A stretch of 64,000 bases of DNA from an uncultured Oceanisphaera sp. (lineage in GTDB: Bacteria; Pseudomonadota; Gammaproteobacteria; Enterobacterales; Aeromonadaceae), in assembly GCF_947495715.1 (NCBI RefSeq), contig NZ_CANLZU010000021.1, positions 1 to 64,000 of the forward strand. The letters are read 5' to 3'. The notes under the pieces were generated by a model that was given only the letters and a program-made list of their open reading frames with translations, was not told where the DNA came from and did not search any database. Shown here in pieces: positions 6,982 to 60,176 of the stretch; positions within the stretch are counted from its first letter, which is position 1; every line of letters begins with the position of its first letter. The position numbers and the translations under genes are program-made.

Positions 6982-7087
6982 GAGAATAAAGGGAACCACA
7001 GAGCCGACCGTGACATGCCATGGATGGCATGTCCGAGCCTACAAGGATGTACTCGTGGCGTGTCGGCGTTGTGGTCCCTTTATTCTC
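6982..7087 (+). repeat. ANGGA-hairpin palindromic unit E1 (single)
   Basis: An outer stem (6982-7009 with 7061-7087) encloses two hairpins. The first has arms GACATGCC/GGCATGTC (7012-7019, 7026-7033) and loop ATGGAT. The second has CGAG/CTCG and TAC/GTA arms and loop AAGGAT (7043-7048). The unit fills the gap between the acyl-CoA dehydrogenase and hydrolase genes, which are read on the opposite strand. It belongs to a family of 17 copies in this window. Confidence 0.85.
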
Positions 7088-7113
7088 TTTTCTCCGGCCT
7101 GCATCCGACGTCA

Positions 7114-8268
7114 TCACAACTCCCCGCTTCCTTCCGCCAGCACCCGCCGGGCAATCAGCAGCTTCATGATTTCGTTGGTGCCTTCAAGAATACGATGCAC
7201 CCGGGTATCACGCAGATAACGCTCCAGCGGATACTCCCGAATATAACCGTAGCCGCCATACAGCTGCAGCGCCTGATCGCACACCCGAAACCCCACATCG
7301 GTGGCAAAGCGCTTGGCCATGGCGCAATAGGTGGTGGCATCCGCATGCCCCCCGTCCAGCCTGCAGGCGGCCAGCCGCACCAGCTGACGAGCCGCCACCA
7401 GCTCGGTCGCCATGTCGGCGATGGTAAATTGCAGCGCCTGAAACTCGGCCAGCTTGCGGCCAAACTGGCTGCGCTCCTGCAAATACTGCCGCGCCTGATT
7501 CAGCGCCTGCTGGGCCGTACCCAGCGAGCAGCTGGCAATGTTGATACGCCCGCCATCCAGCCCCTTCATGGCGATTTTGAAGCCTTCGCCTTCCCGCCCC
7601 AGCAGCTGCCCGGCCGGAACTTTTACCCCCTCGAAGGTGACGGTGCGGGTCGGCTGACTGTTCCAGCCCATCTTGTCTTCGGGCCGACCGTAGCTGATGC
7701 CGGGACTGTCGGCGTCCAGTGCAAAGGCGGAGATCCCCCCGGCGCCCTCACCGCCGGTGCGGGCCATCACCACCAGTACCTGGGTGCTGCCGGCGCCGGA
7801 AATAAACATCTTGCTGCCGTTGAGCTCATAATGATCGTCGACCCGCCGGGCAACCGTTTTCAGGGCGGCCGCATCGGAGCCGGCGTTGGCTTCGGTCAGG
7901 CAGTAGGAGCCAAGCAAACGGCCGTCGTTCAGTCCCTCACCCCAGCGATCCCGGCAGCCCTGTGCTCCGAAGCTGGCTATCATCCAGGTGACCATGTTGT
8001 GAATGGTGAGAAAAGCGGTGGTAGAGGTGCAGCCCATGGACAGGCGCTCGAAGATAAGACTGGCATCGAGCCGGCTCAGCCCGAGGCCACCGGCCGACTC
8101 GGGGGTGTAGAGGCCGCAAAAGCCGAGCCCGCCCGCCTTTTGCAGTACCTCGACCGGAAAGTGATGATCCCGATCCCAGTCGGCGGCGTGAGGCTCCAGT
8201 TCATTACGGGCAAAGTCATCGGCCAGCTCGACGAAGGCACGCTGTTCGTCACTCAGTTCAAAGTCCAT
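7114..8268 (-). CDS. Acyl-CoA dehydrogenase, probably isobutyryl-CoA dehydrogenase
   Basis: The 384-aa FAD enzyme oxidises a short branched acyl-CoA and reduces ETF. Motifs include LTEANAGSDA, the FAD-binding W/T region, and the catalytic base Glu at about 362 in RILEGTNEI. That is the position used by isobutyryl-, short- and medium-chain dehydrogenases, unlike isovaleryl-CoA dehydrogenase. Its place between mmsA and the 3-hydroxyisobutyryl-CoA hydrolase gene points to isobutyryl-CoA, and probably 2-methylbutyryl-CoA, as substrate. ATG 8268 follows GGGAG by five bases; a GTG two codons earlier is less well placed. Confidence 0.9.
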   Translation of the reverse strand: MDFELSDEQRAFVELADDFARNELEPHAADWDRDHHFPVEVLQKAGGLGFCGLYTPESAGGLGLSRLDASLIFERLSMGCTSTTAFLTIHNMVTWMIASFGAQGCRDRWGEGLNDGRLLGSYCLTEANAGSDAAALKTVARRVDDHYELNGSKMFISGAGSTQVLVVMARTGGEGAGGISAFALDADSPGISYGRPEDKMGWNSQPTRTVTFEGVKVPAGQLLGREGEGFKIAMKGLDGGRINIASCSLGTAQQALNQARQYLQERSQFGRKLAEFQALQFTIADMATELVAARQLVRLAACRLDGGHADATTYCAMAKRFATDVGFRVCDQALQLYGGYGYIREYPLERYLRDTRVHRILEGTNEIMKLLIARRVLAEGSGEL

Positions 8269-8287
8269 ACACACTCCCTAAGCAAGC

Positions 8288-8660
8288 GGTAAGCCGTAAG
8301 CTGTAAGCGAAAAACAACCCACAGTAACCCCACCCCAGCCCTCCCCTTGCGTTGCACCCCGCTGTCATTCTGTGGCTCACGAGTTCAGGGGAGGGAGCTA
8401 ACAGCCCCTCCCCCTTGGCAGCGGGACTACAGACATCACAGTGGGGTTTCGCCAGGGGGAGGCTGGGTGGGGGTGTTATTTCTGGCCTTGGCATCGGAAC
8501 GGCAGAACATGCAACTATCCTGCAGAAGCCCCTCCCCAGCCTCCCCCTGGCGTTGCACATTGGCACTACTCTGTTGAAACAGAGGTCAAGGGGAGGGAGC
8601 AAAACCGACCCAGAGGTCTCATTTGGGACCCTTACGGCTGATCGCTTAAGGCTTACGGCT
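8288..8660. repeat. C-rich 70-bp repeat triplet flanked by TAAGCCG arrays
   Basis: Three related copies lie at 8329-8400, 8403-8475 (inverted) and 8527-8600. Each starts with a CCCCTCCC/CCAGCC block and ends with GGGGAGGG, so each can fold on itself, and the first two also form one large palindrome. The cluster is flanked by short arrays of TAAGC-type units, in one orientation at 8288-8309 and inverted at 8631-8660. It fills the whole 393-bp gap between mmsA and the dehydrogenase gene. I see no reading frame or promoter I would trust. The family is unknown to me. Confidence 0.7.
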
Positions 8661-8661
8661 G

Positions 8662-10155
8662 TCATTTCAGGTGAATCGACATGTTGGGTCCGGCGACGAC
8701 GTCATCATCAAACCAGCGGGCGGTGACGGTTTTGGTCTCGGTATAAAAACGCACCGCCTGCTTGCCGTAGGCATGCAGGTCGCCGTAGAAAGAGTTGCGC
8801 CAGCCGGTGAAGGAGAAAAACGGCAAGGGTACCGGTATCGGCACATTGATGCCCACCTGCCCTACCTGAATTTCGTGCTGATATTTGCGCGCCGCCGCCC
8901 CCGAGGCGGTAAAGATCGAGGTGCCGTTGCCGTAGGGATTGGCGTTCACCAGCGCGATGGCCTCCTCCAGGTTGTCTACCGTTATCACCAATAATACCGG
9001 GCCGAAAATTTCTTCCTTGTAGATGCTCATCTCGGTGGTCACGCCGCTGAACAGGGTGGGCCCCAGCCAGTTGCCGTCCGGGTAACCGCTCACCTCGGCA
9101 TGACTGCCGTCGAGCAGGCAGTTGGCGCCCTCGCGCTTGCCCTCGGCAATCAGCCGCAGCACCCGCTCCCTGGCCGATGTGCTGATCAGCGGGCCGTAAC
9201 CGGCCTTGGGGTCATTCCAGATACCGGGGCGCACTTTTGCCATCGCCGCCTGCAACTCGGGAATCCAGCTGGCGGCTTCGCCCACCAGCACCGCCACCGA
9301 AATCGCCATGCAACGCTGGCCGGCAGCACCGACCGAGGCGCCAACCAGATTGTTGATCGCCTGCTGCCGATTGGCGTCGGGCAACACTACCATGTGGTTT
9401 TTAGCGCCGGCAAAGGCCTGCACCCGCTTCAGATGATCGGTGCCGGTACGGTAAATATGCTGGCCCACCGCCACCGAGCCGACGAAGGAAATCGCGCGCA
9501 CCTTTGGGTGTACCAGCAGCCGGTCGACCACTTCCTTACCACCATGCACCACTTGCAGCAGACCGTCGGGGGCGCCCGCTTCCATAAACAGCTCCGCCAG
9601 TCGCATCGGCACCAATGGATCCTGCTCCGAAGGCTTGAGCACGAAGGTGTTGCCGCAGGCGATGGCCAGCGGAAACATCCACAGCGGTATCATCGCCGGA
9701 AAGTTGAACGGCGTGATGCCCACGCACACCCCCAGCGGCTGGGTCAGGCTGTAGCAGTCGACGCCACTGGCCACGTTTTCCAGCGCTTCGCCCATGCTGA
9801 GGGCCGCGATATTGGCCGCCTGCTCCACCACCTCGATGCCGCGCCAGACATCGCCTTTGGCATCTTCGAAGGTCTTGCCGGTATCACGACTGAGCAAGCG
9901 CGCCACATCGTCGTGATGCTCTTTCAGCAGCGCCTGATACCGCAGCATTAACCGGGCCCGCTCCGGCACCGGTGTTTCCTTCCAGGTCACAAACGCTTCG
10001 CTGGCCGCCTGTATCGCCGCTGCCACTTCCGCCTCGGTGGCACAGGGCAGGCGGGCGATCACTTTCTGGGTGGCCGGGTTGTTGACCTCCAGCCACTGAT
10101 CGGTGCGGCTGGCCACCATGCTGCCGCCAATCAGCAGCGGAATCTGATACGCCAT
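8662..10155 (-). CDS. mmsA: Methylmalonate-semialdehyde dehydrogenase (CoA-acylating)
   Basis: The 497-aa aldehyde dehydrogenase family enzyme converts methylmalonate semialdehyde, NAD and CoA to propionyl-CoA and CO2, the last step specific to valine. The catalytic Cys282 sits in [10 protein letters not shown], and the cofactor-binding [11 protein letters not shown] is at 147-157. The start ATG 10155 has GGAGG seven bases upstream; the in-frame codon eight residues earlier is poorer. It follows the thiolase gene by 35 bp. A 393-bp repeat block separates it from the dehydrogenase gene downstream. Confidence 0.95.
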
Positions 10156-10190
10156 GGCTATTCCTCCCTTCAGGTTCAATCAACACCGGG

Positions 10191-11372
10191 TTACATCAGC
10201 TCCAGTGCCATTGCCGTGGCTTCACCACCACCGATACACAACGCCGCCACCCCTCGCTTCAGCCCGCGTCGGCGCAGGGCATGCAGCAGGGTCACCACAA
10301 TACGGGCACCGCTGGCACCAATGGGGTGACCCAGGGCGCAGGCGCCACCATTGACGTTGACCTTGCCCGCATCGAGCCCGAGTTCGTTTATCGCCAGCAG
10401 AGTCACTACCGCAAAGGCTTCGTTGATTTCAAACAAGTCCACCTCGTCGACCTGCCAGCCGACCTTGTCCAGCAGCTTTTGAATGGCACCGATGGGCGCC
10501 AGAGTGAACTCGGCAGGCAGCTGAGCATGGGTGGCATGGCCCAGTATTCGGGCCAGGGGAACAATACCCTGCGCCCGGGCCTGCTCGGCGGTGGTGACCA
10601 CCAGCGCGGCAGCACCGTCGGAAATGGAGCTGGAATTGGCGGCCGTGACGGTGCCGTCTTTGGCAAAGGCAGGCTTGAGCCGGCGAATCTTTTCCGGCCT
10701 GGCCTTGCCCGGTTGCTCATCGGTAGCCACCGCCACCCTGTCATGCTTATGCTCGACCAGTACGGCGGTAATCTCATCGGTAAATGCCCCTTCGGCCATG
10801 GCGCGGCGGGCTCGACTCAGGGACTCGAGTGCAAAGTCATCCATCGCCTCACGGCTTACGCCGCACTTGTCTGCCGTTTGCTGGGCAAAGCTGCCCATCA
10901 GCCTCCCTTCGTAGGCGTCTTCCAGGCCGTCGAAAAACATGTGATCGAGCAGTTGAGTATGCCCCATGCGCAAGCCCGCCCGCGCCTTAGGCAACAGGTA
11001 GGGCGCCAGGCTCATGCTTTCCATGCCGCCGGCCACCATCAGCTCGGCACTGCCGGCCCTGAGCTGATCGTGCGCCAGCATCAGCGCCTTCATGCCGGAA
11101 CCACACATCTTGTTGACCGTGGTGCAACCCGTGCCCACCGGCAACCCCGCCGCCAGCGCCGCTTGCCGGGCCGGCGCCTGCCCCAGGCCCGCCGCCAGCA
11201 CGCAGCCCATCACCACTTCGTCAATTTGCTCCGGCGTGACTCCGGCCCGTTGCAGGGCGGCGGCAATGGCGGTCCCACCCAATTGTGGCGCCGGTACCGT
11301 GCCCAGCTCCCCCATCAGAGCCCCCATTGGCGTGCGGGCCGCCCCCACTATCACTATTTCGCTGTTGCTCAT
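10191..11372 (-). CDS. Acetyl-CoA C-acyltransferase (thiolase) of the valine/isoleucine cluster
   Basis: This is a 393-aa thiolase with all three catalytic residues: Cys90 in VNKMCGSGMK, His349 in LGHPIGASG and Cys379 in ALCIGGGEA. In this setting it probably cleaves 2-methylacetoacetyl-CoA from isoleucine, as proposed for ivdA-type genes; acetoacetyl-CoA from the leucine branch is also possible. The start after GGTGGAG is preferred over an ATG five codons upstream. It is the first gene of the minus-strand cluster and divergent from liuA. Confidence 0.9.
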   Translation of the reverse strand: MSNSEIVIVGAARTPMGALMGELGTVPAPQLGGTAIAAALQRAGVTPEQIDEVVMGCVLAAGLGQAPARQAALAAGLPVGTGCTTVNKMCGSGMKALMLAHDQLRAGSAELMVAGGMESMSLAPYLLPKARAGLRMGHTQLLDHMFFDGLEDAYEGRLMGSFAQQTADKCGVSREAMDDFALESLSRARRAMAEGAFTDEITAVLVEHKHDRVAVATDEQPGKARPEKIRRLKPAFAKDGTVTAANSSSISDGAAALVVTTAEQARAQGIVPLARILGHATHAQLPAEFTLAPIGAIQKLLDKVGWQVDEVDLFEINEAFAVVTLLAINELGLDAGKVNVNGGACALGHPIGASGARIVVTLLHALRRRGLKRGVAALCIGGGEATAMALELM

Positions 11373-11430
11373 GCTGGCTCCACCCATCCGTGAAACAAAG
11401 CAGAAAGTGTCTATTTATTCTGCTGAATAA

Positions 11431-11532
11431 GGACAAAGGGCCAGCTCCGCCGACTCGCTGTGAATACCTCCATGTACGCTCACACATGCCTTCCCTGGCA
11501 TGTGACGGTCTGCGGAGCCGATCCCTTTGTCC
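11431..11532 (-). repeat. ANGGA-hairpin palindromic unit E2 (single, reversed)
   Basis: Outer arms starting GGACAAAGGG (11431) and ending CCCTTTGTCC (11532) enclose two hairpins: TAC-loop-GTA (11465-11476) and ACATGCC-loop-GGCATGT (11484-11503). Read on the minus strand the loops are ATGGAG and AGGGAA. The unit lies in the 347-bp divergent gap between the thiolase gene and liuA. The rest of that gap holds the two promoters and a short palindrome AACTATAGTT near 11636; I recognise no LiuR-type site. Confidence 0.85.
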
Positions 11533-11719
11533 TCTCGCAAATAGCGGCGTCATCTGTATGGAACTCCACCCCCCCACTCCTGCGCACCATCTCAAATACT
11601 TATTCAAGCTTAGCCGCCGCCAATCGCCCTGTGGCAACTATAGTTAATTCGGCAACACCGGCAGCAAACGAACCCATATTTGGCACCGCAGTCCCTGCCC
11701 CCATCAAGAGGAGGACGCC

Positions 11720-12883
11720 ATGACTCTCAACTCCCCCCTGAATATTGGGTTGGACGACACCCTGACCCTGCTGCGCGAGCAGGTCGCGGCCTTCGCCAAA
11801 CACGAAGTCGCCCCGCTGGCCGATGCCATCGATCGGGAGAATCGTTTCCCTGCCGAGCTGTGGCCCAAACTCGGTGACATGGGATTGTTCGGCATCACGG
11901 TGGACGAGGCCTGGGGCGGCGTGAACATGGGTTATCTGGCCCATGTGCTGGCGATGGAAGAAATAAGTCGGGCCTCGGCGGCGGTAGGGCTGTCTTACGG
12001 CGCCCATTCCAATCTGTGCGTCAATCAGATCCATCGCCATGGCAGCGAAGCCCAGAAACAACGCTACCTGCCACCCTTGCTCAGCGGCGAGCATATCGGC
12101 GCCCTGGCCATGTCCGAGCCCAATGCGGGATCCGACGTGGTGTCGATGAGCCTGCAGGCCCGGGCCGACGGCGATCACTTCGTGCTGAACGGCACCAAGA
12201 TGTGGATCACCAACGGGCCCGAAGCCCAGGTGCTGGTGGTGTACGCCAAGACAGAGCCGCAGGCCACAAGCCGCGGTATCAGTGCCTTCATCGTGGAGCG
12301 CGACACGCCCGGTTTCAGCCACGCCCAGAAGCTCGACAAACTCGGCATGCGCGGCTCCAGCACCTGCGAACTGGTGTTTCAGGACTGCCGGGTGCCGGCG
12401 GCCAATCTGCTCGGTCCGCTGAACGGCGGAGTGGATGTGCTGATGAGCGGCCTCGATTACGAACGGCTGGTGCTGGCCGGCGGGCCGCTCGGCATCATGC
12501 AGGCGGCCATGGATCTGGTGCTGCCCTACGTGCGCGAACGCAAACAATTCGGCCGGGCCATCGGCGACTTTCAGCTGGTGCAGGGAAAGCTGGCGGACAT
12601 GTACACTCAAATGAACGCCGCCCGCTGCTATACCTACATGACCGCCATGGCGGCGGACCGGGGCGAGCTGAATCGCAAGGATGCCGCCGGCGTGATTCTG
12701 CTGGCTTCAGAAACCGCCACTCAAATGGCACTGGACGCCATTCAGCTGCTGGGCGGCAACGGCTATATCAACGAGTTTCCCGCCGGCCGACTGCTGCGGG
12801 ATGCCAAGCTGTACGAAATCGGCGCCGGCACCTCGGAGATCCGCCGCATGCTGATCGGCCGCGAGCTGGTACAGAATCGGTGA
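11720..12883 (+). CDS. liuA: Isovaleryl-CoA dehydrogenase
   Basis: The 387-aa acyl-CoA dehydrogenase is the first enzyme of the leucine/isovalerate pathway and produces 3-methylcrotonyl-CoA while reducing ETF. The family-specific catalytic base is Glu248 in [14 protein letters not shown]. The usual C-terminal Glu position is Gly in [11 protein letters not shown], which is the hallmark of isovaleryl-CoA dehydrogenases. AGGAGG precedes the ATG closely. It is followed by liuB after 183 bp that contain repeat unit E3. Confidence 0.95.
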
Positions 12884-12922
12884 TTGTTTATGTCTGGAAC
12901 AGACAGTTTCAAGCTTACAGAG

Positions 12923-13030
12923 CGGATGAAGGGATCTGCTCAGCCGACCATCACGTGACAGGGATGTCATGTGTTGAGCGTTACAGGGATGTACTTGAAG
13001 CGTGTCGGCGGAGCAAACCCTTTACCCGTT
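12923..13030 (+). repeat. ANGGA-hairpin palindromic unit E3 (single, inside liu operon)
   Basis: The outer arms GGGATCTGCTC...CCGAC and GTCGGCGGAGC...CCC enclose two hairpins with loop AGGGAT. The first has arms ACGTGAC/GTCATGT at 12953-12972, the second TAC/GTA near 12982-12993. Both present ACAGGGATGT in the plus-strand transcript. The unit is in the sense orientation between liuA and liuB, so it should be part of the liu mRNA. Confidence 0.85.
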
Positions 13031-13066
13031 CATTAACGGAGCACACACGCAACGCGGGAGTCGGTC

Positions 13067-14671
<1,605 letters not shown>

Positions 14672-14679
14672 GAGGCAAG

Positions 14680-17491: not shown

Positions 17492-18378
17492 ACGACAAGG
17501 TCAAACTGGTGGAAGTCGGCCCGCGCGACGGCCTGCAGAACGAGCCGGGGCTGGTGCCGACGGCGGTGAAAATCGCGCTGGTCGAGCGTCTCGCCGACTG
17601 TGGCCTGGGCCATATCGAGGCCGCCAGCTTTGTCTCGCCCAAATGGGTACCGCAAATGGCCGACGGCCACGCCGTGCTCACCGGTATTCGGCGCCGGCCC
17701 CAGGTGATCTACAGCGCCCTCACCCCCAATATGCACGGCCTGGAGGCAGCCCTGACCGCCGGTGCCGACGAAGTGGCGGTGTTTACCGCCGCTTCCGAGT
17801 CGTTCTGCCGGCACAATATCCATTGCTCCATCGCAGAGAGCCTGACCCGCTTCGCGCCGCTGCTGGCCAAGGCCCGGCAGCATCGGCTACGAGTGCGCGG
17901 CTATGTGTCCACCGTGCTCGGCTGCCCCTATGAAGGCAAGGTGTCGCCCGCCGCCGTGGCCCGGGTGGCCGACGCCTTGTACCAACTGGGCTGCGCTGAA
18001 ATCTCTCTCGGCGACACCATCGGCATAGGCACCCCGAACCGGGCCCGGGCCATGTTGGCCGCGGTACGCCGGCAGGTGCCGATAGAAAACCTGGCCGTGC
18101 ATTTTCACGATACCTACGGCCAGGCGCTGGCCAATATTCATGCGCTGCTGGAAGATGGTATTCGCATCATCGACAGTTCGGTCGCCGGGCTCGGCGGCTG
18201 CCCCTACGCCCCCGGCGCCTCGGGTAACATCGCCACCGAAGAGGTGGTTTATCTGCTCAACGGGCTGGGCCTGGACACCGGCGTCGATCTGGACCGACTG
18301 GTAGACACCGGCCGCTGGATCAGCCAGCAGCTGGGCCGGCACAACGGCTCCAAGGTGGGCCTGGCCTGGCCAAAGTGA
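17488..18378 (+). CDS. liuE: Hydroxymethylglutaryl-CoA lyase
   Basis: The 296-aa TIM-barrel lyase cleaves HMG-CoA to acetyl-CoA and acetoacetate and so completes leucine breakdown. VGPRDGLQNE near the N-terminus carries metal and substrate ligands, and GLGGCPYAPGASGN contains the active-site cysteine loop. It overlaps liuD by four bases. No acetoacetate-activating gene (CoA transferase or acetoacetyl-CoA synthetase) and no liuR regulator lie in the window, so those must be elsewhere. Confidence 0.95.
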   Translation: MNDKVKLVEVGPRDGLQNEPGLVPTAVKIALVERLADCGLGHIEAASFVSPKWVPQMADGHAVLTGIRRRPQVIYSALTPNMHGLEAALTAGADEVAVFTAASESFCRHNIHCSIAESLTRFAPLLAKARQHRLRVRGYVSTVLGCPYEGKVSPAAVARVADALYQLGCAEISLGDTIGIGTPNRARAMLAAVRRQVPIENLAVHFHDTYGQALANIHALLEDGIRIIDSSVAGLGGCPYAPGASGNIATEEVVYLLNGLGLDTGVDLDRLVDTGRWISQQLGRHNGSKVGLAWPK

Positions 18379-18401
18379 GGGGGTAAAAATCTGGCAATGT
18401 C

Positions 18402-18666
18402 GGACAAAGGATCCGCTCCGCCGACTCGCTATGAATACCTCCGTGTACGCTCTCTGTTTCATCCCTGAAACAGAAGGTCGCCGGAGCAGATCCCTTTGTC
18501 CTTCTTGATGCTACCGCGTCTTCGGTTAGCCTTGTCTACGGGCAACTCGGTATTCAAGAAGAGGCAACAGAGAACGGCTCCCACGACCGTGAAATGCCAG
18601 GGATGGCATTTCCGAGCTTACATGGACGTACTCGTAGCGCGTCGTGGGAGGTGGCTGTGTTGCCTC
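18402..18666. repeat. Paired ANGGA-hairpin element E4
   Basis: A reversed unit (18402-18501) and a forward unit (18561-18666) are joined by a 59-nt linker containing CAACTCGG. In the reversed unit the first hairpin has arms TCTGTTTC and GAAACAGA; in the forward unit it has AAATGCC and GGCATTT. Each has loop AGGGAT when read in sense. The second hairpins have loops ACGGAG and ATGGAC. It fills most of the 463-bp gap between liuE and mdh. The rest holds a short run of AATCCC-type heptamers (18764-18790) and the mdh terminator. Confidence 0.85.
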
Positions 18667-18796
18667 TGGAGATAAAGCCAATTCATCGTAAAAGGTTAGA
18701 TCTGTGCATCAGAACCTGCTCTGCAGGTTTTCGCGGCTGAAGCACGCGACTACTCCCCTCAAATCCCCAATCCCTATTCCCCAATCCCTGAACTGA

Positions 18797-18822
18797 AAAA
18801 GGGAGCCGAAGCTCCCTTTTTT
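18797..18822 (-). terminator. Intrinsic terminator of mdh (probably bidirectional)
   Basis: The perfect stem AAAAGGGAGC/GCTCCCTTTT around CGAA lies 20 bp past the mdh stop. On the minus strand a T-run follows the stem (complement of 18796-18800). On the plus strand TTTTTT follows, so it can also stop liu transcripts. Confidence 0.9.
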
Positions 18823-18841
18823 AGCGGACCGAATTCGAACC

Positions 18842-22847: not shown

Positions 22848-23348
22848 ATGTCCCATTCAACCACGCTCAGTCGGCTGCAAAAAATGAACGAAAAGCAAGA
22901 ACAACTGATCAAGGCCTTCAAGGCCCTGCTCAAGGAAGAACGCTTCGGCTCCCAGGCAGAGATAGTGAGTGCGCTGCAGGATTCGGGGTTCGACAATATC
23001 AACCAGTCCAAAGTCTCGCGCATGCTGAGCAAGTTCGGCGCCGTGCGTACCCGCAATGCCAAGATGGAAATGGTCTATTGCCTGCCGGTCGAACTGGGCG
23101 TGCCCACCAGCAGCAGCCAGTTGAAAAATCTGGTGCTGGATGTGGGCCACAACAGTGCCCTCATCGTGATCCATACCAGCCCCGGTGCCGCCCAGCTGAT
23201 TGCGCGCATGCTCGACTCGCTCGGCAAGGCTGAAGGCATTCTCGGCACCATCGCCGGTGATGACACCATTTTCATTACTCCCACCAACGATACCCCGATA
23301 GAAACCCTGTTCCAGGGTGTACTGGAGCTGTTCGAGCAGTACGTCTGA
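22848..23348 (+). CDS. argR: Arginine repressor
   Basis: This is a winged-helix regulator. DNA-binding residues [12 protein letters not shown] and [19 protein letters not shown] are in the N-half, and the hexamerisation/arginine-binding domain with [18 protein letters not shown] and [10 protein letters not shown] is in the C-half. It is nearly collinear with E. coli ArgR. I keep the ATG at 22848 (166 aa); an internal ATG at 22884 would give the more typical length of about 154 aa, and neither has a strong ribosome site. The stop codon falls on the first base pairs of a GACTCGG tandem array. Confidence 0.96.
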
Positions 23349-23426
23349 CTCGGGACTCGGGACTCGGGACTCGGGACTCGGGACTCGGGACTCGGGACTC
23401 GGGACTCGGGACTCGGGACTCGGGAC
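23347..23426 (+). repeat. Tandem heptamer array GACTCGG x11
   Basis: Eleven perfect copies of the 7-bp unit GACTCGG plus three bases run directly from the argR stop codon. The first unit provides the last two bases of TGA. Perfect copies suggest recent expansion by slippage. C-rich heptamer tracts follow in the opposite sense at 23513-23550 and 23603-23624. Confidence 0.95.
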
Positions 23427-28583: not shown

Positions 28584-29043
28584 TACTGATACCAAACTGA
28601 GAAAGTAACTGTTCTATTCATCTGTTCTGAAAAGGCCGAACGAAGGATCTCCACCATCGACACGCTGCAAGCACTTCCCTGTGGCGCTCAGCACATGACG
28701 TCCTGTCATGTGATGGTCGCTGGAGTAGAACCCTTCATCCGCCCCAATGCTGCGGCGTCGTCTGTGGGAGCGACCTGCAGACAACTCGGTACTTAAGGAG
28801 AGGCAACAGAGATCGGCTCCCACGACCGTGACAATGCCAGGGATGGCATTTCCCGAGCCCTCAGGGGGCGAGCTTGTCTCGCCGTGACGAAAGGTTGTAG
28901 CTAAACCGAGCATCCAGTGAATGCTCGCAATTAGCTGCAACTGTGAGTGTCTTTTATCAGTGGCGTGTCGCGGGAGGTGGCTCTGTTTCCTCGTGTATTC
29001 AGTTTTAAACTAGATCATATTTTTACTTAGATTGGTATTAGTT
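28584..29043. mobile_element. Composite element E5: ATACCAAT-type inverted ends around a paired ANGGA-hairpin core
   Basis: The end ACTGATACCAAACTGAG (28584-28600) is the imperfect inverse of CTTAGATTGGTATTAGT (29026-29042). Inside are a reversed unit (28640-28737) and a forward unit (28799-28991) joined by a linker with CAACTCGG. The forward unit is interrupted by a hairpin insertion at about 28867-28945. The right end contains the TAA stop of amtB (29038-29040). Apart from the Fur site and the terminator, the 654-bp gap between fbpA and amtB is this element. Confidence 0.75.
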
Positions 29044-31209: not shown

Positions 31210-31211
31210 CT

Positions 31212-31318
31212 GGGGAATGGGGAATGGGGAATGGGGAATGGGGAATGGGGAATGGGGAATGGGGAATCGATCGTATAATCCCTAATCCCTAATCCCTAAT
31301 CCCTAATCACCAATCCCT
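31212..31318. repeat. Facing heptamer arrays (GGGGAAT)8 and (TAATCCC)4
   Basis: Eight perfect GGGGAAT units run from 31212 to 31267. After an 8-bp spacer come four TAATCCC units (31276-31303) and degenerate copies. The two arrays are near-complementary, so the transcript can fold. The G-runs could also form a quadruplex. The block fills the gap between convergent arfB and yacL and may act as their shared transcription end. Confidence 0.9.
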
Positions 31319-32933: not shown

Positions 32934-33200
32934 AGAGGCAACACAGCCGTCTCCCTCGACACGCCATAAACCTTCCCTGGGGCTCGGAAATGCCGTCCCT
33001 GGCATTTCACGGTCGTGGGAGCCATTCTCTGTTGCCTCTTCTGGAACACCGAGTAGCCCGCTGACGGCGCCAACAGGCCTCGCCGGAGCTTCAAGGAGGA
33101 CGAAGGGATCTGCTTCACCGACCATCACATGACAGGGAAGTCATGTGTTGAGCGTCACAAGGAGGTGCTTGAGCGAGTCGGCGAAGCGGGCCCTTTGTCC
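32934..33200. repeat. Paired ANGGA-hairpin element E6
   Basis: A reversed unit (32934-33039, outer arms AGAGGCAAC/GTTGCCTCT) and a forward unit (33098-33200, outer arms GGAC-AAGGG/CCCTTTGTCC) are joined by a 58-nt linker containing CCGAG. Loops in sense are AGGGAC and AGGGAA (first unit), AGGGAA and AAGGAG (second). At 32888-32915 an ACTAATtCCA...GATCTGGTC flank resembles the outer ends of E5 and E8. Confidence 0.85.
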
Positions 33201-34959: not shown

Positions 34960-35066
34960 GGGAATGGGGATTGGGGATTGGGGATTAGGGATTCGAGGAT
35001 CGGGACTGGTGAAACCGGCCTTTATTCCCCGCTCCCTATTCCCTATTCCCCGCCCCCTAATCCCTC
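34960..35066. repeat. Facing degenerate heptamer arrays after xanP
   Basis: GGGAATG/GGGATTG/GGGATTA units (34960-34990) face CCCTATT/CCCTAAT units (35027-35066) across a 36-bp spacer containing CCGG palindromes. They lie exactly between the convergent xanP and piuC stops. The arrangement repeats that of 31212-31318 with different unit sequences. Confidence 0.8.
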
Positions 35067-35854: not shown

Positions 35855-36130
35855 GGGCAAAAGGAATGACTCCACCGGCCCTCTGCGCCAGGGACGGCGC
35901 AGTGGAGCCCCCAGGGAAGGGTTTACGGCGAGCCGGTGGAGTTGGCCTTTTGGCCGACATACACGGCTCCGACAGATGGCTTTGCTATCAGACAACACTG
36001 CTGCCGGCACCTGCACTGCGAAGCACCAGCACGGTTACCTTCGCCGACACGCTTCAAGCCCATCCATGGGACGCTCGGCAAATGCCATCCCTGGCATTTG
36101 ACGGTCGGCTACGGTAATCCCTGCTGCTAC
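35855..36130. repeat. Paired ANGGA-hairpin element E7 (forward then reversed)
   Basis: A forward unit (35855-35955) has hairpins CTGCGCC-AGGGAC-GGCGCAG and CCC-AGGGAA-GGG. A reversed unit (about 36020-36130) has, in sense, loops AGGGAT and ATGGAT. This pair is in the opposite order to the other six. It fills the gap between piuC and its receptor gene. Confidence 0.8.
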
Positions 36131-38548: not shown

Positions 38549-38920
38549 GTAATAACAATCTGACTAAGCAAATGATCTGTTTACCTGCCTTTTAAAGGTC
38601 GAACGAAGGGTCTACTCCATCGACACGCTGCAAGCACCTCCATGTGACGCTCAGCACATAACTTCCATGTCATGTAATGGTCGCTGGAGTAGAACCCTTC
38701 ATCCGCCCCTCTGCTGCGGCGTCGCCTGTGGGAGCCCCTGCAGACAACTCGGTGTTTGAGAAGAGGCAACAGAGATCGACTCCCATGACCGTGAAATGCC
38801 AGGGAAGGCATTTCCGAGCTTACAGGGAAGTACTTGTAGCGTGTCGTGGGAGGTGGCTGTGTTGCCTCTGATCTCGGATTTAAATTAATGATCAGATCTT
38901 TATTCAAATTGGTATAAACA
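38549..38920. mobile_element. Composite element E8: inverted ends around a paired ANGGA-hairpin core
   Basis: The left end TAATAACAATCTGACTAAG (38550-38568) and right end ATTCAAATTGGTATAAA (38903-38919) are diverged inverted copies of the E5 ends. The core holds a reversed unit (38602-38700) and a forward unit (38762-38869) with the same linker type as E5. Loops in sense are ATGGAA and ATGGAG, then AGGGAA and AGGGAA. With the Fur site and the acnB terminator, it accounts for most of the 608-bp gap. Confidence 0.75.
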
Positions 38921-47853: not shown

Positions 47854-47973
47854 GGTGACCTCTATTATGATTTTTAGCCCCGTTCAAGCAATGGTCGCTG
47901 AAAAGTCCAGACTCGATATGACCACTACAGGTTAAACGGGCCAAAGTTTACTGTTCTGTTATAGAAAAGAAAG

Positions 47974-47999
47974 TAAAAAGGCAGGCGAATGCCTGCCTT
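47974..47999 (-). terminator. Terminator/attenuator between aceF and lpd
   Basis: AAGGCAGGC/GCCTGCCTT with a 4-nt loop is followed on the minus strand by TTTTTACTTT. It lies seven bases past the aceF stop and can separate aceEF from lpd expression. Confidence 0.8.
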
Positions 48000-48005
48000 G
48001 TCACA

Positions 48006-49898: not shown

Positions 49899-49908
49899 GT
49901 ATTACCCC

Positions 49909-52569: not shown

Positions 52570-52630
52570 GGCTGTTTCCTATCTCGTTTGGGGCACCTGC
52601 CCATGGGTTTCGTCGTTGCCGAAGGCGTTG

Positions 52631-53392: not shown

Positions 53393-53406
53393 CGGGTCCG
53401 CTTTAA

Positions 53407-53423
53407 AATTGGTAAGACCAATT
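53407..53423 (-). promoter_or_regulatory. PdhR box 1
   Basis: AATTGGTAAGACCAATT is a perfect palindrome with 3-nt spacer, identical in form to the E. coli PdhR operator (ATTGGTnnnACCAAT). It lies 14 bp before the pdhR start codon. Confidence 0.92.
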
Positions 53424-53566
53424 AACACTGTTAAAAAAAGGTATCAGAGCGGAGATAAAATGTCCAATAAATTAATCCGGATTGCGCACAATAGATGGCA
53501 AAACAAGCAGAAAAACCCGGGCATCATTCAACACTAGATCAGGTATCACAAAACACCAGTCGCGGT

Positions 53567-53583
53567 GATTGGTAAGGCCAAAT
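53567..53583 (-). promoter_or_regulatory. PdhR box 2 (imperfect)
   Basis: GATTGGTAAGGCCAAAT keeps TTGGT-aag-nCCAA, with one mismatch in each outer position of the second half. It lies 160 bp upstream of box 1 and could support looping or a second promoter. Confidence 0.6.
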
Positions 53584-53590
53584 AAATTAC

Positions 53591-53679
53591 TGTGAGGTGT
53601 GAGGTGTGAGGTGTGAGGTGTGAGAAGAAAGAAAGTCTGAGAGCTCCTCAGCCCTTCCTCCTCACCCCTTACCCCTCAC
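53591..53679. repeat. Heptamer array (TGTGAGG)5 facing C-rich units
   Basis: Five TGTGAGG units (53591-53624, last one short) face a CCTCCTCACCCC/CCCTCAC tract (53657-53679) that ends six bases before the nadC stop. Unlike the arrays at 31.2 and 35.0 kb, this one lies between two genes on the same strand. Confidence 0.85.
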
Positions 53680-53684
53680 TGTAT

Positions 53685-54563
<879 letters not shown>

Positions 54564-54678
54564 TTATTGTCTTGTCCATTTATTCAATATTTCAAGAAAT
54601 CTTTCTTGTTCCCAGGCTCCGCGTAACCGCTTTAAGCCATAAGCCTGTCTCTGAATCAAAAATCAACGTGTGGAATAA

Positions 54679-54947
54679 AGAGGCAACAGGGTTGCCTCTT
54701 CCGACACGCTGCAAGCACATCCCTGTGACGCTCAGCAAATGCCATCCCTGGCATTTGACGGTCGGCTGAGGCAATCCCTGTAGCCTCTTCTTGACGCCCG
54801 AGCTAGCTGTTGGCATCACAAACAGGCGACGCCGGAGCTTCAAGGAGGACAGAGGGATCTGCTCAGCCGACCATCCGCGCCACGGATGGCGCGGCTGAGC
54901 CCCCAAGGATGGGTTCACGGCGAGTCGGCGGAGCGGGCCCTATGGCC
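54679..54947. repeat. Paired ANGGA-hairpin element E9
   Basis: A reversed unit (54679-54788, outer arms AGAGGCAACAGGG/CCCTGTAGCCTCT) and a forward unit (54847-54947) are joined by a 58-nt linker. Sense loops are AGGGAT and AGGGAT in the first unit. The second unit has ACGGAT (arms CCGCGCC/GGCGCGG) and AAGGAT (arms CCC/GGG). It fills the centre of the 494-bp gap between nadC and the retropepsin-like gene; the rest shows no feature I can support. Confidence 0.85.
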
Positions 54948-55033
54948 GAAGTGCAAACATTGAGCTAAAAACCAAGCGATTTTTCTACTCTAGATTTGTG
55001 ACCAAGAGACAAGCTTAAAGCTTAACGCTTTCT

Positions 55034-55537
55034 TTATCGCTTCAGCGTCATCTGCCCGTCCCGCTGGATCAGTTCAAACTGACGCAGGGCGTTCATGCCC
55101 AGCAGGATTTCGTCGCTGTCGGCGGGCATGATAATAGCGTTCAGATCGTACAGGGTGAAGGGACCCAAAGACAGGGTTTTCAGTCGGGTGCGATAGCCGG
55201 TGACCACGCCCGCCGCCGTGCTCAGTCGCACCGCTTGTTCGACTTCCAACCCCAGTCGGGCCGCCACCGCCTGGGGGATGGCCACCTGAGTGGCGCCGGT
55301 GTCCAACAGAAACACCACCGGCTCGCCGTTGATACTGCCGCCGGCCAGATAATGCCCCTGCCGGTTCTGCTCCAGCACTATGGTTCTGGCATCCAGCCGC
55401 TGTACCTGTTGGTTGGGGTTGTAATCCTGCTCCAGCTTTTGCTGAAAATACCAGGTCAGCAGCACCATCCCCAGTCCCCACGCCAGCAGCCACATGATGC
55501 GGCCCAGCCGGCGCTGAGTATTGGTTGTCTTACTCAT
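55034..55537 (-). CDS. Membrane-anchored retropepsin-like aspartic protease (clan AA)
   Basis: The 167-aa protein has one N-terminal membrane segment (about 12-30, IMWLLAWGLGMVLLTWYF) and a single retropepsin domain. The catalytic DTG is at 79-81 in FLLDTGATQVAIP, and the hydrophobic ILLGMNALRQFEL near the C-terminus is the family closing motif. Such bacterial proteins are expected to act as dimers in the periplasm; their substrates are unknown. ATG 55537 follows GGAAGG. A longer in-frame extension overlaps ampD and is not used. Confidence 0.85.
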   Translation of the reverse strand: MSKTTNTQRRLGRIMWLLAWGLGMVLLTWYFQQKLEQDYNPNQQVQRLDARTIVLEQNRQGHYLAGGSINGEPVVFLLDTGATQVAIPQAVAARLGLEVEQAVRLSTAAGVVTGYRTRLKTLSLGPFTLYDLNAIIMPADSDEILLGMNALRQFELIQRDGQMTLKR

Positions 55538-55637
55538 GCTGCCTTCCCCGGGGCTTGCCCCTTTGCTATCGAGGCTTTTAGTATACCCCCAAGCTCCCTT
55601 CCCTTGTGTGCCAATCATGTGCAAAGAGTGTGCAACC

Positions 55638-56204
55638 ATGTCCCTGACCCCGCCCCTGAATCTGAATAACGACGGCTGGCTGTCTCCCGCCCGCCACTGC
55701 CCTTCGCCCCATTGCGATGAACGGCCGGACGGCGATATTTCGCTGCTGGTGGTGCATTGCATCAGCCTGCCGCCGGGGCGTTTCGGCGGCCCCCATATCG
55801 ATCGGCTGTTTCTGGGCAATCTGAATCCGAATGAGGATCCCTACTTCGCCGGCATTCATCAACTAAAGGTGTCGGCCCACTGCCTGATCCGCCGCGATGG
55901 CGAGCTGGTGCAGTATGTGCCCTTCAACAAGCGGGCCTGGCATGCGGGCCTGTCCTGCTTTGAAGGGCGGGAGCGATGCAACGATTTTTCGATAGGCATC
56001 GAGCTGGAGGGCACCGATACCGGCAGCTATACCGCCGCACAGTACCGACAACTGACCGCGGTCAGTCGGCTGCTGCTGGCCCACTATCCGGCCATCACCC
56101 CCGCGCGCATCGTCGGCCACAGCGACATTGCGCCCGGGCGCAAGACGGATCCGGGCACCGGTTTCGACTGGGACTTTGTCGAGCGGTTGCAGGAAGCTCC
56201 TTAG
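55638..56204 (+). CDS. ampD: 1,6-anhydro-N-acetylmuramoyl-L-alanine amidase
   Basis: The 188-aa cytoplasmic zinc amidase recycles cell-wall muropeptides and so limits AmpR-type induction of beta-lactamase. Zinc ligands are His40 (LLVVHCIS), His161 and Asp171, with catalytic Lys169 (GHSDIAPGRKTDPG). ATG 55638 gives the usual length; an upstream ATG at 55617 would add seven residues. No ampE follows; the pilin gene comes next. Confidence 0.95.
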   Translation: MSLTPPLNLNNDGWLSPARHCPSPHCDERPDGDISLLVVHCISLPPGRFGGPHIDRLFLGNLNPNEDPYFAGIHQLKVSAHCLIRRDGELVQYVPFNKRAWHAGLSCFEGRERCNDFSIGIELEGTDTGSYTAAQYRQLTAVSRLLLAHYPAITPARIVGHSDIAPGRKTDPGTGFDWDFVERLQEAP

Positions 56205-56408
56205 TGCAGAAAGAGGAAAACGACCAATATAAAAAATAGGCAGGTTTGCGGGTGTTTTTCGCCGTTTTAACGCAAAATTTCTATCAATACATTGGGAAAA
56301 ATTTCAAAGGCTTGCTATAGCTATTAGGCGGGCTTCAATTAGCGCCCCACTTAGGCACCCAGTGCGATAGCGTTAGCAACAACGTTTTATTGAATCAAGG
56401 ATGACGAT

Positions 56409-56831
56409 ATGAACCAGCTTCCCGTTACACGCCGCCAGGGCGGCTTTACCCTGATAGAACTGATGATAGTGGTGGCGATCGTGGCCATACTGGCTGCCGT
56501 GGCACTGCCGGCGTATCAGACCTATACCCAAAGAGCCAAATTCAGTGAGGTAATAGCGGCAACTGGCTCAGCGAAGACGGCCATAGAGGTCTGTGTACAG
56601 TCAGGTGAAACAACTATGTCTACCTGTGATACCAAAGCAGAAAGTGCGATTTCAGGCGCAGTTGATACTGATCTGGTTTCAGGTGTTGCTATATCTCAAG
56701 ATGGTACTGATTACACAGTTGTAGCATCTGGTGACGGCGCATTATCAGGTGCATCATATACATTAACCGGAACTCCGGACAACGGAAGGGTGATATGGGA
56801 ACAAGAATGCAGCCCGACTGAGCTTTGTTAA
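56409..56831 (+). CDS. pilA: Type IV pilin major subunit
   Basis: The 140-aa prepilin has a leader of 12 residues and cleavage at [20 protein letters not shown], with Glu5 of the mature protein present for assembly. Four cysteines (62, 73, 134, 140) allow two disulfides, the last pair forming a short C-terminal D-region loop. The part after the conserved helix is visibly richer in A/T than all neighbouring genes, as expected for a variable surface antigen. pilB follows seven bases later. Confidence 0.93.
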
Positions 56832-56838
56832 TTATTTC

Positions 56839-58551
56839 ATGACCATACCAATCAACACCTCCCAAAGCGGCCTGGCCAGAAGCCTGGCCGCTTCCGACCA
56901 GTTAAGCGCCGACCAGCTGACCCAGGCGCTCGCGCTGACCCGGCAGGAAGGCAAGTCGCTTAGTACCGTGCTGGTGGAACATCGGTTTCTGTCCAGTATC
57001 GAGCTGGCCCACTTCTGCGAGCGGGAATACGGGCTGCCGCTGACCGACCTGGATGAGATAGCGCCGGATCAGGTTCCGCCCCAGTACATGAGCATGGATC
57101 TGATTGAGCGCCATCATGTGGCGCCTGTCATGCTGCAGGGCCGGGTGCTGTATCTGGCGATGTCGGACCCTACCAAGGTGTCCGCGCTGGAAGACTTCGG
57201 CTTTCGCTTCAACCTGGTTACCGATGCCGTTCTGGTAGAGGAAGACAAGCTGCAACTGCTGCTTGCTCGCCTGCAACAGGCCGGTGACGCACTCGATCTG
57301 GATCATATCGAAGATAACGATATTGCCGACCTCGAGCTGGGTGAAGATCCCGAAGAGCGTTATCACGACGAGCTGGGCAAGTCCGACGACGATGCTCCCA
57401 TCGTCCGCTACATCAACAAGATCATACTGGATGCGGTGCGTCGCGAAGCCTCGGATCTGCACTTCGAACCCTATGAGCGCTTCTATCGTATTCGCTTTCG
57501 CATCGACGGCATGCTGCACGAAATCGCCTCGCCACCGGTCAACCTGGGCACCCGTTTTGCCGCCCGACTCAAGGTAATGGCGCGACTGGATATCGCCGAG
57601 CGACGATTGCCGCAGGATGGTCGTATCAAGATCAAGCTGACCCGCAACAAATCGGTAGACATGCGGGTCAACAGCCTGCCCACCCAGTGGGGCGAAAAAA
57701 TCGTAATGCGGATCCTCGACAGTTCGGCCGCCAAGCTGGATATCGACAAACTCGGCTACGACGAACAGCAAAAACAGCTGTATCTGGACGCGCTGAAAAA
57801 GCCTCAGGGCATGATACTGGTAACCGGCCCGACCGGCTCGGGCAAGACGGTGTCGCTCTATACCGGCTTAAGCATACTGAACACCGTCAGCGCCAATATT
57901 TCCACTGCCGAAGATCCGGTCGAGATCACCCTGCCCGGCATCAACCAGGTGCAGATCAATCCCAAGTCGGGACTCAGCTTCGCTCACGCCCTGCGCGCCT
58001 TTCTGCGGCAGGATCCGGATATCATCATGGTGGGGGAAATACGGGATCTGGAAACCGCCGAAATTGCGGTCAAGGCCGCCCAGACCGGGCACCTGGTGCT
58101 TTCTACCCTGCACACCAACTCCGCCGCCGAAACCCTGACCCGCCTCAGCAACATGGGGCTGCCCGCCTATAACATTGCCTCTTCGGTCACCCTGATCATG
58201 GCCCAGCGGCTGGCGCGCAAACTCTGCCTCGAATGCAGACAGCAAGAGCAGATCCCCGAAGAGCAACTGCGGGAGCTCGGTTTCGGTGCCGGCCAACTGA
58301 GCTCGCCCCCGACGCTGTACCGGGCCGTCGGCTGCAAACACTGCACCGAAGGCTACAAGGGCCGCATCGGCATCTATGAGGTGCTGCCGATGAGCAGTAC
58401 CCTGGCCAACCTGATCATGGAGGGCGCCAACTCGCTGACACTGGCCCGGGCGGCGGCAGAGTCCGGCATGATCAGCCTGCGGCAGGCGGCGCTGGAAAAG
58501 GCCCGACTCGGCATCATCAGCCTGGCGGAAGTCAACCGCATCACCCTTTAG
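56839..58551 (+). CDS. pilB: Type IV pilus assembly ATPase
   Basis: The 570-aa GspE/PilB-family extension motor has an N-terminal MshEN-like domain (about 1-150), Walker A GPTGSGKT near 330, Asp boxes, Walker B ([16 protein letters not shown]) and His box ([12 protein letters not shown]). A zinc tetracysteine is formed by CLEC (about 462-465) and CKHC (about 499-502). It powers pilus polymerisation at the inner membrane with PilC. It is in the pilA-pilB-pilC-(E10)-pilD run. Confidence 0.96.
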
Positions 58552-58590
58552 CCGACGGCTCTCTCCGGCCAGGAAACATAAGGATGTGTC

Positions 58591-59817
58591 ATGGCAGCAG
58601 CAAAAAAAAGCAGCGCTCAGCCCTACCAGTGGGAAGGCCTGAACCGACGCGGACAGAAGGTGTCCGGCTTTATGCTGGCGGCCAACGTGCAGGCGGTCAA
58701 GCGCGACCTGCAGCGCCAGGGGGTCAGTACCACCAGGGTTAAACGCAAGCGCGAGAGCCTTCTTTCCCGGCGCAAGAATGTCATCAAACCGATGGACATC
58801 GCGGTGATCACCCGCCAGGTGGCCACCATGCTCAGCGCCGGGGTGCCTCTGGTGCAAACCCTGCAGATCATCTCCCGCTCTTCCCAGAAAAGCAGCATTC
58901 GCGAACTGACCGGAATCATTGCCAGCGATGTGGAAGGCGGTACCCCGCTCTCCGAGGCGCTGAAGAAATTCCCACGCCAGTTTGATGAGCTGTATTGTGA
59001 TCTGGTGCATTCCGGCGAGCAGACCGGTGCCCTGGATCATATCTTCGCTCAGATTGCCATTTACCGGGAAAAGGCCGAGGCGCTGAAGTCGAAGATTAGA
59101 AAAGCCCTGTTCTACCCGGCCATGGTGATACTGGTGGCCATTATCGTTACCTCGATTCTGCTGCTGTTCGTGATTCCGCAGTTTGAAGAAATTTTCGCCG
59201 GATTCGGCGCCACCCTGCCCATGTTTACCCAGATGGTCATCATGCTGTCTCGCTGGATGCAGGACTACTGGCTCTATATTCTGGCCGCCACCGTGGCGGC
59301 GATATTCACCTATGTGCGCGCCTGGCGTCATTCGGAAAAAGTACGCGATGCCACCGATCGCTTTGTGCTGCGCCTGCCGGTGGTGGGCGACATATTGCAC
59401 AAGGCCGCCCTGGCCCGTTTTGCCCGCACTCTGGCCACCACCTTTTCTGCCGGTATTCCGCTGGTAGAAGGGCTGGTTTCCTCCGCCGGCGCCAGCGGCA
59501 ACGTGGTCTATCGTCAGGCGGTGATGATGGTTCGCTCCGAGGTGATGGCCGGCATGCAGATGAACCTGGCCCTGCGCTCGACCCAGCTGTTTCCGGATAT
59601 GGTGGTGCAGATGGTGATGATTGGCGAGGAGTCCGGCGCCATCGACGACATGATGAACAAGGTGGCGGTGATTTACGAACGGGAAGTGGATGATGCGGTA
59701 GACGGCCTTACCAGCCTGATTGAGCCGCTGATCATGGTGGTACTGGGTATTCTGGTTGGCGGCCTGGTCATTGCCATGTATCTTCCCATCTTTGACCTGG
59801 GTAACGTGGTACGCTGA
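58591..59817 (+). CDS. pilC: Type IV pilus inner-membrane platform protein
   Basis: The 408-aa GspF-family protein has two homologous cytoplasmic helical domains, each followed by membrane spans. Repeated motifs are RQVATMLSAGVPLVQTLQ in the first and RTLATTFSAGIPLVEGL in the second, with the C-terminal block IEPLIMVVLGILVGGLVIAM. It links the PilB motor to the growing pilus. A 419-bp gap filled by element E10 separates it from pilD. Confidence 0.96.
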   Translation: MAAAKKSSAQPYQWEGLNRRGQKVSGFMLAANVQAVKRDLQRQGVSTTRVKRKRESLLSRRKNVIKPMDIAVITRQVATMLSAGVPLVQTLQIISRSSQKSSIRELTGIIASDVEGGTPLSEALKKFPRQFDELYCDLVHSGEQTGALDHIFAQIAIYREKAEALKSKIRKALFYPAMVILVAIIVTSILLLFVIPQFEEIFAGFGATLPMFTQMVIMLSRWMQDYWLYILAATVAAIFTYVRAWRHSEKVRDATDRFVLRLPVVGDILHKAALARFARTLATTFSAGIPLVEGLVSSAGASGNVVYRQAVMMVRSEVMAGMQMNLALRSTQLFPDMVVQMVMIGEESGAIDDMMNKVAVIYEREVDDAVDGLTSLIEPLIMVVLGILVGGLVIAMYLPIFDLGNVVR

Positions 59818-59850
59818 GCCCTGCTTGCTTGTTGGGCCGTGCAGATTCGT

Positions 59851-60176
59851 CGGACAAAGGGCTCTGCTTCACGACACGCCGTAAACCCCTCCATGGGGGC
59901 TCCGCCGCGCCATCTGACCGCCATGGATGGCGGAAATGTCTAAAATGCAGGAGCATTTTTAGACCATGGCGCGAAGGGTCGTGAATCAGACGCCCTTTCC
60001 CCTCCTGTACTTACCCCGAGTTGCCGGGCAGCACCAACAGGCGGCGCCGCAGATGCACGAAGCAGCATCAGGGATTACCGTAGCCGACCGTCAAATTCCA
60101 TGGAAGGCATTTGCCGAGCGTCCCATGGAGGGGCTTGAAGCGTGTCGGCGCAGGTAACCCTGATGTTGCTTCGCGG
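59851..60176. repeat. Paired ANGGA-hairpin element E10 with internal insertion
   Basis: A reversed unit (59851-60001) is expanded by a roughly 50-nt insertion in its first hairpin (about 59914-59964). The insert itself folds as CCGCC-ATGGAT-GGCGG and as a GTCTAAAATGC/GCATTTTTAGAC stem with AGGA loop. A linker with CCGAGTTGCC leads to a forward unit (60057-60176) with loops ATGGAA and ATGGAG. It occupies the pilC-pilD gap in the sense strand of the pil operon. Confidence 0.8.

Follow-up and report, generated by a model that had tools for sequence, protein, structure and literature searches.

A 64,000-nt stretch of DNA from an uncultured Oceanisphaera sp. (contig NZ_CANLZU010000021.1, positions 1 to 64,000; the whole stretch is called the window here), a marine bacterium, contains a repeated palindromic element of about 100 bp. 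An earlier note, made from the sequence alone, had reported 17 units of it in ten gaps (E1 to E10), and all 17 were present. A covariance model, R1, was built from 15 window units, which match it by construction, and was run on the window with filters off. These 15 units scored 80.9 to 106.9 bits, and two interrupted units scored lower. The units are listed below with their R1 scores; L and G numbers here and later are our labels for loci and genomes.

6985..7085, + strand: unit E1, single; outer stem and two ANGGAN hairpins (106.9 bits; loops ATGGAT and AAGGAT)
11431..11531, − strand: unit E2, single (102.8 bits; the gap is 24 nt without a unit in congener L227)
12925..13027, + strand: unit E3, single (97.4 bits; the gap is only 9 nt in congeners L223 and L224)
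18402..18500, − strand: unit E4 left, left half of a doublet (85.0 bits)
18501..18563, no strand: E4 doublet spacer, 63 bp (folds below shuffles, z −1.9)
18564..18664, + strand: unit E4 right (101 bits)
28638..28739, − strand: unit E5 left; hairpin 1 with a short AGGAC loop, read from the sequence (83.6 bits)
28803..28902, + strand: unit E5 right; N2-type insert in place of the hairpin 2 loop (26.5 bits; N2 core at 28865)
32937..33035, − strand: unit E6 left (80.9 bits)
33099..33200, + strand: unit E6 right (92.7 bits)
35856..35955, + strand: unit E7 left; by orientation, in the sole tail-to-tail pair of the 464-kb sample described below (87.7 bits)
36025..36127, − strand: unit E7 right (100.7 bits)
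38601..38703, − strand: unit E8 left (95.8 bits)
38766..38866, + strand: unit E8 right (100.2 bits)
54682..54784, − strand: unit E9 left (98.5 bits)
54848..54947, + strand: unit E9 right (98.3 bits)
59868..59985, − strand: unit E10 left; N1-type insert, recognised by its core, in place of the hairpin 1 loop (34.7 bits, model positions 17-85 only)
60065..60167, + strand: unit E10 right (91.9 bits)

The true E5 right unit extends further right than 28902 because of its N2 insert. An insert replaces one hairpin loop in 2 of the 17 units; nearly all intact hairpins have an ANGGAN loop, as the note had said, and the shorter AGGAC loop that it saw in E5 is real. When the window was scanned for hexaloops on uninterrupted stems of at least 8 pairs (G-U allowed), 11 A.GGA. 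loops were found; each of nine alternative patterns gave 0 to 2.

In each unit, the strand with GGA forms an outer stem plus two hairpins whose hexaloops read C-ANGGAN-G, and this fold is under selection. For the 15 window units, RNAalifold gave 33 pairs, 21 of them with double changes, which bears out the compensatory stem changes described before. Three larger alignments were analyzed. A2 held 47 copies from 464 kb of the same genome (the window, C1 1-280000 and C2 1-120000), and A3 and A4 were both built across genera, A4 with 123 units. In A2, 94.3% of cells paired, versus 76.9% in shuffles, and 25 of 33 pairs had double changes; any of five covariation measures was reached by 0 of 500 shuffles, and slid partners dropped to 35-45% paired. 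In A3, 92.8% of cells paired and double changes occurred in 30 of 33 pairs, again with 0 of 500 shuffles. In A4, 25 of 33 pairs had E <0.05 against 4443 non-structural column pairs (a null that left out columns with ≥30% gaps and null pairs adjoining structural ones), and 16 scored above every null pair. Covariation, which the note had proposed to check, was significant in the copies sampled from this genome and in those from across genera alike. The proposal that stem arms change in pairs held for most pairs; the lower stem of hairpin 2 was mostly constant or G-U and had no clear covariation support in A4. The strongest extra signal in A4, from columns 34/129, was the highest null pair and in fact a real Watson-Crick pair (GC 72, AT 23, CG 10, and TA 7 of 123). 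It closes the junction side of hairpin 1 and is absent from the earlier description.

G-U cells far outnumbered A-C cells, 137 versus 17 in A2 and 320 versus 81 in A4 (47 of the 81 came from one doubtful pair), indicating that the GGA strand is the folding strand. Among the 45 of 47 A2 units kept for strand comparison (90-110 nt), the GGA strand was more stable than its complement in 42 with RNA parameters and in 41 with DNA parameters. RNA and single-stranded DNA fit the fold data alike and cannot be told apart by them. Selection had been claimed to act on a folded nucleic acid and not on a simple DNA site. For a folded single strand this is upheld by the covariation within the genome and across genera, the G-U excess and the strand stability. 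The second half of the claim stands for double-stranded DNA; the site selected may still be one in single-stranded DNA.

Both loops match the CsrA/Rsm site, whose motif is given as CANGGANG (PMC6849547). The selection-derived (SELEX) consensus of CsrA is reported as RUACARGGAUGU with mostly six-nucleotide loops, the ANGGAN loop is described as contacted at A and GGA, and CsrA is reported to bridge sites 10-63 nt apart with an optimum of >18 nt (PMC7652899). In A4, the A, G, G, and A letters occurred in 121/121, 121/122, 118/121, and 116/116 hairpin 1 loops and in 120/122, 121/122, 121/122, and 121/122 hairpin 2 loops; these cross-genus counts are partly biased toward the match, since the pattern scan required the hairpin 2 loop and the models carry both loops. 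The closing C-G was nearly constant and loop positions 2 and 6 were free. Loops are steadier than stems, as the note had it, in that positions 1, 3, 4, and 5 barely vary. At least two CA(N)GGANG motifs were present in 42 of 47 A2 units and in 105 of 123 A4 units. The distance from GGA to GGA was 19-22 nt in all 42 units with exactly two motifs (45 examined), so judged by sequence this spacing is within the published range for bridging by one CsrA dimer. The loops' match to the CsrA/Rsm site, which the earlier note missed, and the GGA spacing are new here.

The units are also arranged in a characteristic way. Among 49 units of the 464-kb sample, 48 were intergenic (gene calls from a simple script). 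When gaps of at least 50 bp were counted, units occupied 5 of the 57 divergent, 10 of the 54 convergent and 18 of the 117 codirectional ones. Neighbouring units within 130 bp formed 16 pairs, 15 head-to-head and one tail-to-tail. Thus 30 units made up 15 head-to-head doublets, 13 of them with a spacer of 61-64 bp. Some spacers folded better than shuffles and others did not (z −2.4 to +1.7, 15 spacers). The left flank of E3 resembles half a doublet spacer by eye. The E4 block (18396-18668, about 273 bp) recurs whole and in part elsewhere in the genome and in congeners, among the matches listed. The commonest form spans about 270 bp: a head-to-head doublet, with a spacer of usually 61-64 bp separating its two inverted units, that recurs as one block. 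Identity to the nearest copy averaged 0.927 for doublet units (n=28) and 0.828 for single units (n=19), P 3e-5; for REPINs, built on repetitive extragenic palindromic (REP) sequences, doublets are likewise reported to be better conserved than singlets (PMC3116915).

Occupancy turned over between congeners. In 12 congener stretches, the orthologous gap held a unit in 5 of 10 readable cases for E2, 5 of 11 for E3 and 5 of 8 for E4, some of these units being oppositely oriented; the remaining readable gaps were unit-free, two at E3 being 9 nt and one at E2 24 nt long. Around 15 doublets there was no consistent target-site duplication, the longest shared words being 4-6 nt or none. In genome G059 (L161, L245-L252), a single unit is embedded in a composite of about 370 bp. 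Several copies of this composite are scattered through the genome, some of them where contigs end; identity is 92-98% in many of their alignments and lower in others, and the composite is probably a recently active form. In Xanthomonas codiaei, the five units of L120 (6871-7633) switch orientation from one to the next and are separated by 104, 35, 106, and 35 bp, an array like a bacterial interspersed mosaic element (BIME).

The family is abundant and widespread. In the same genome (3.65 Mb, 82 contigs), the best 150 of 1934 first-look candidates were scored, giving at least 150 R1 copies, the weakest of these at E 5e-14. The 464-kb sample had 47 matches at E ≤1e-5. The window contributed 15 of them and the remaining 400 kb 32, from which extrapolation gives about 300 copies genome-wide; the window has more than its share of units. 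With R1, 46 of 276 Gammaproteobacteria genomes (this one included) proved to have units, covering 42 of 216 genera. In a second survey, 35 of 397 Pseudomonadota genomes (this one included) were positive. All 35 belong to the window's class, the share of the 397 outside that class not being listed. The best ≤14 and ≤10 candidates per genome were scored in the two surveys, so copy numbers are floors and absences are soft. Among the matches listed, a hairpin 2 and junction pattern was found in species-level genomes of Zobellella, Oceanimonas, Oceanisphaera, Halopseudomonas, Pseudomonas, Rheinheimera, Arsukibacterium, Lysobacter, Xanthomonas, Arenimonas, Marinimicrobium, Oleispira, and others. In 80 loci taken from this pattern scan, the model gave 126 matches at E ≤0.01.

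Plasmid records gave no match with two queries; a third matched two records, from Ancylobacter (Alphaproteobacteria) and Xanthobacter, and the model confirmed the unit in the Ancylobacter one. Xanthobacter also belongs to class Alphaproteobacteria. Phages with one query, viral contigs with one narrow exact pattern, and the own genome with an early exact pattern gave no match. Rfam had no match at gathering score in the window, nor at E up to 1 in window positions 18300-18800, and at six other loci it gave only two tRNA matches. No paper recognisable as describing this repeat was found in the literature searched, a search whose reach left out most subscription journals.

This distribution bears on one explanation, that the units are host regulatory RNA, dispersed CsrA sponges or elements of 3' untranslated regions kept for the host and not mobile themselves. 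The CsrA-type loops with their spacing and the intergenic placement agree with it. The turnover at orthologous sites, the patchy presence among the 276 genomes, the lack of strand bias given below and the absence of a promoter-like site in the two doublets scanned do not, and we regard it as barely conceivable.

Some units carry inserts of three types, whose positions were judged by eye. N1 (about 50 nt) replaces the hairpin 1 loop in 13 of 16 matches (L046, L047, L053, L067, L081, L088, L096, L100, L112, L145, L147, L154, and window 59868-59985) and lies beside hairpin 1, reversed, in the other three (L063, L092, L127). The complement of N1 holds a hairpin like CANGGANG, so N1 looks like a small nested relative in the opposite orientation. 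N2 (about 100 nt) had 13 of 16 pattern matches in units, and all 13 followed directly after CANGG of hairpin 2 in one orientation; sites are window 28865 onwards and L079, L112, L128, L145, L147, L154, L224, L225, L231, and L233. For N3, four of 8 matches were in the hairpin 1 loop, one was elsewhere near a unit, and three were unrelated.

Candidate mobilising enzymes were sought near the units. REP-associated tyrosine transposases (RAYTs), of the Y1 type, would be the mobilisers if the units were classical REP/REPIN elements. The plan is the same, with extragenic, high-copy inverted doublets. Of 45 unit-bearing genomes, 39 had a RAYT match, as did 16 of 37 comparison genomes where the search showed no unit (Fisher P 4e-5); over the family cut-off the counts were 25 of 45 versus 9 of 37 (P 0.007). 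RAYT matches were thus commoner in bearers; a single order supplies 20 of the 37 comparison genomes, and all 37 were called unit-free from the best-scored candidates in each. In addition, six units in G453 (L253 1921-3157), in tandem at about 227 bp, alternate by eye with a GTAG-type palindrome in a hybrid array. However, no unit was present in 32 Y1/RAYT loci, namely 30 of the many RAYT places listed for the 45 genomes and the own genome's two Y1 loci, with flanks of about 1.5 kb as far as the contig reached, although REPs are reported to flank their RAYT genes in every case (PMC2817692). Nor did a GT(A/G)G head stand at a fixed offset, since any one GTRG offset was common to at most 2 of 49 units. 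Six of 45 bearers had no RAYT match, and the own genome's RAYT-like match was a fragment below cut-off. No unit was near the one full IS605-type element found in the own genome (L031). RAYT was therefore rejected as the mobiliser on the evidence of these loci, and the classical explanation is quite improbable. The repeats form a family of mobile, non-autonomous DNA that is REPIN-like, though outside the RAYT-REP class by the two features tested. This affinity to REPIN/BIME-like mobile DNA, seen in the doublets, the congener turnover and the high copy number, was missed in the earlier note.

Two other enzymes were tried and rejected. On plasmid pDCA of Ancylobacter novellus (L272 3560-5133), two inverted units flank an ISAs1-type transposase gene, and 17-bp terminal inverted repeats enclose the whole, with an 8-bp target duplication seen by eye. 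The ISAs1-type element adjoins a haloalkane dehalogenase gene. Such an arrangement is what a miniature inverted-repeat transposable element of a DDE insertion sequence, for example of the ISAs1 family, might show. However, ISAs1 was found in only 13 of 77 bearers, 3 of 30 fetched ISAs1 loci held a unit and none held units on both sides, and the doublets lacked a consistent target duplication. This origin is very improbable. In G366 (L244 2142-3330), two inverted units flank a DUF4357 gene; of the ten candidates scored in this genome, only three matched the unit. DUF4357 was assigned by Pfam, and the GIY-YIG part is our reading of a motif. DUF4357 was present in only 8 of 77 bearers, and units occurred at the locus in G366 only.

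As an aside, the window also has short tandem repeats of 7 bp (GACTCGG, TGGGGAA, TAATCCC, GGGATTG, TGTGAGG) at 23347-23426, 31211-31318, 34960-34993, and 53591-53624.

Our preferred reading combines mobility with CsrA binding, and we hold it at slightly less than even confidence: the family would be a mobile doublet spread by a single-strand enzyme, and its transcripts would bind CsrA. Copies would move via a single-stranded intermediate handled by the enzyme. In a transcribed copy, one CsrA dimer would bind both loops of a GGA unit, at sites 19-22 nt apart. The two units of a doublet face opposite ways, so transcription from whichever side yields an RNA with one GGA unit, and the doublet could offer CsrA a site regardless of its orientation; collectively, the copies could sequester CsrA. 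A stronger version, that the element carries a ready-made orientation-independent CsrA cassette which rewires genes where it lands and acts as a distributed sponge, leaving a selfish repeat in control of how strong the host's Csr network is, we think unlikely.

Several observations weigh against the combined reading. Neighbourhoods of Y1/RAYT, ISAs1 and DUF4357 genes yielded no mobilising enzyme. The CsrA part is its weak link. Between codirectional genes, 14 units were antisense and 11 sense, showing no strand preference. Junction letters (GGCG, GAGC, GACC) are about as constant as the loops, so CsrA alone would not explain the constancy. The predicted chance that GGA is unpaired averaged 0.85 and exceeded 0.8 in only 76% of 87 motifs. 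ANGGAN hairpins were not enriched outside the family, with 2 among 978 intergenic hairpins of the own-genome sample; unrelated hairpins converging on ANGGAN, which were looked for in this sample, were accordingly not seen. Neither of two doublets scanned had a promoter-like site of the sigma-70 type, and one had a weak terminator-like site. Inserts N1-N3 that enter loops usually abolish GGA, and both loops are gone in L145, L147, and L154, which counts against a strict need for GGA. The csrA gene is very common in the class. A csrA match in 44 of 45 element-bearing genomes (with one match in the own genome) therefore says little, and in G175, where no csrA match was found at 98% completeness, the one unit read keeps both GGA loops.

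Many of these points would suit a pure DNA element, whose hairpins are only single-stranded DNA recognition sites for a transposase or nuclease and whose likeness to CsrA sites is coincidental. The recurring block of about 273 bp, the congener turnover and the doublet identities agree with such an element, as do the absent strand bias, the constant junction letters, the GGA loops kept in G175 and the loops lost to inserts. The lack of a consistent target-site duplication is expected of single-strand transposition. On the other side, the two hairpins share exactly the CsrA contact letters, their free positions match those left free in RsmE contacts, the spacing suits one CsrA dimer, and the G-U-rich pairing suits RNA at least equally. 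A pure DNA element is possible but doubtful.

Should CsrA bind, a global post-transcriptional regulator would be receiving many sites from transposable repeats. They would then offer a route by which Csr regulons come to differ between related species, and form a natural CsrA sponge beyond the known small RNAs. Even without CsrA, the family is REPIN-like and widespread, its branched fold covaries strongly, and the gene neighbourhoods covered gave no mobilising enzyme, so that it opens the spread of extragenic palindromes to direct tests in marine bacteria that can be cultured.

Parts of the element resemble several known systems. The QMITE1 and QMITE2 elements of Coxiella burnetii are small and dispersed as the units are; some are reported to be transcribed as small RNAs, and QMITE2 to contain a GTAG REP (PMC5896051). 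Unlike the units, they have direct repeats of variable sequence in the description given there, which mentions no CsrA-type paired loops (PMC5896051). IS200/IS605 transposases are described as reading subterminal secondary structure in one strand (PMC6006769); no such gene is linked to the units, however, and the own IS605-type element L031 has no unit nearby. With CsrB, RsmZ and target-leader hairpins, as reported, the units share the ANGGAN hexaloop with a closing C-G (CANGGANG) and two sites that a dimer could bridge (PMC7652899, PMC6849547, PMC12047976). Unlike these hairpins, the units are a dispersed repeat with two candidate sites each and a constant three-way junction, and no promoter of their own was seen in two doublets. 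The units differ from REPINs in their length of about 100 nt, the branched fold with two constant loops, the missing GT(A/G)G head and their absence from the 32 Y1/RAYT loci. With REPIN/REP doublets and BIMEs, as these are described, they share the high copy number of extragenic palindromes and the inverted doublets with a hairpin-forming spacer (PMC3116915, PMC2817692), together with doublets better conserved than singlets, compensatory changes, and, in L120, an alternating array.

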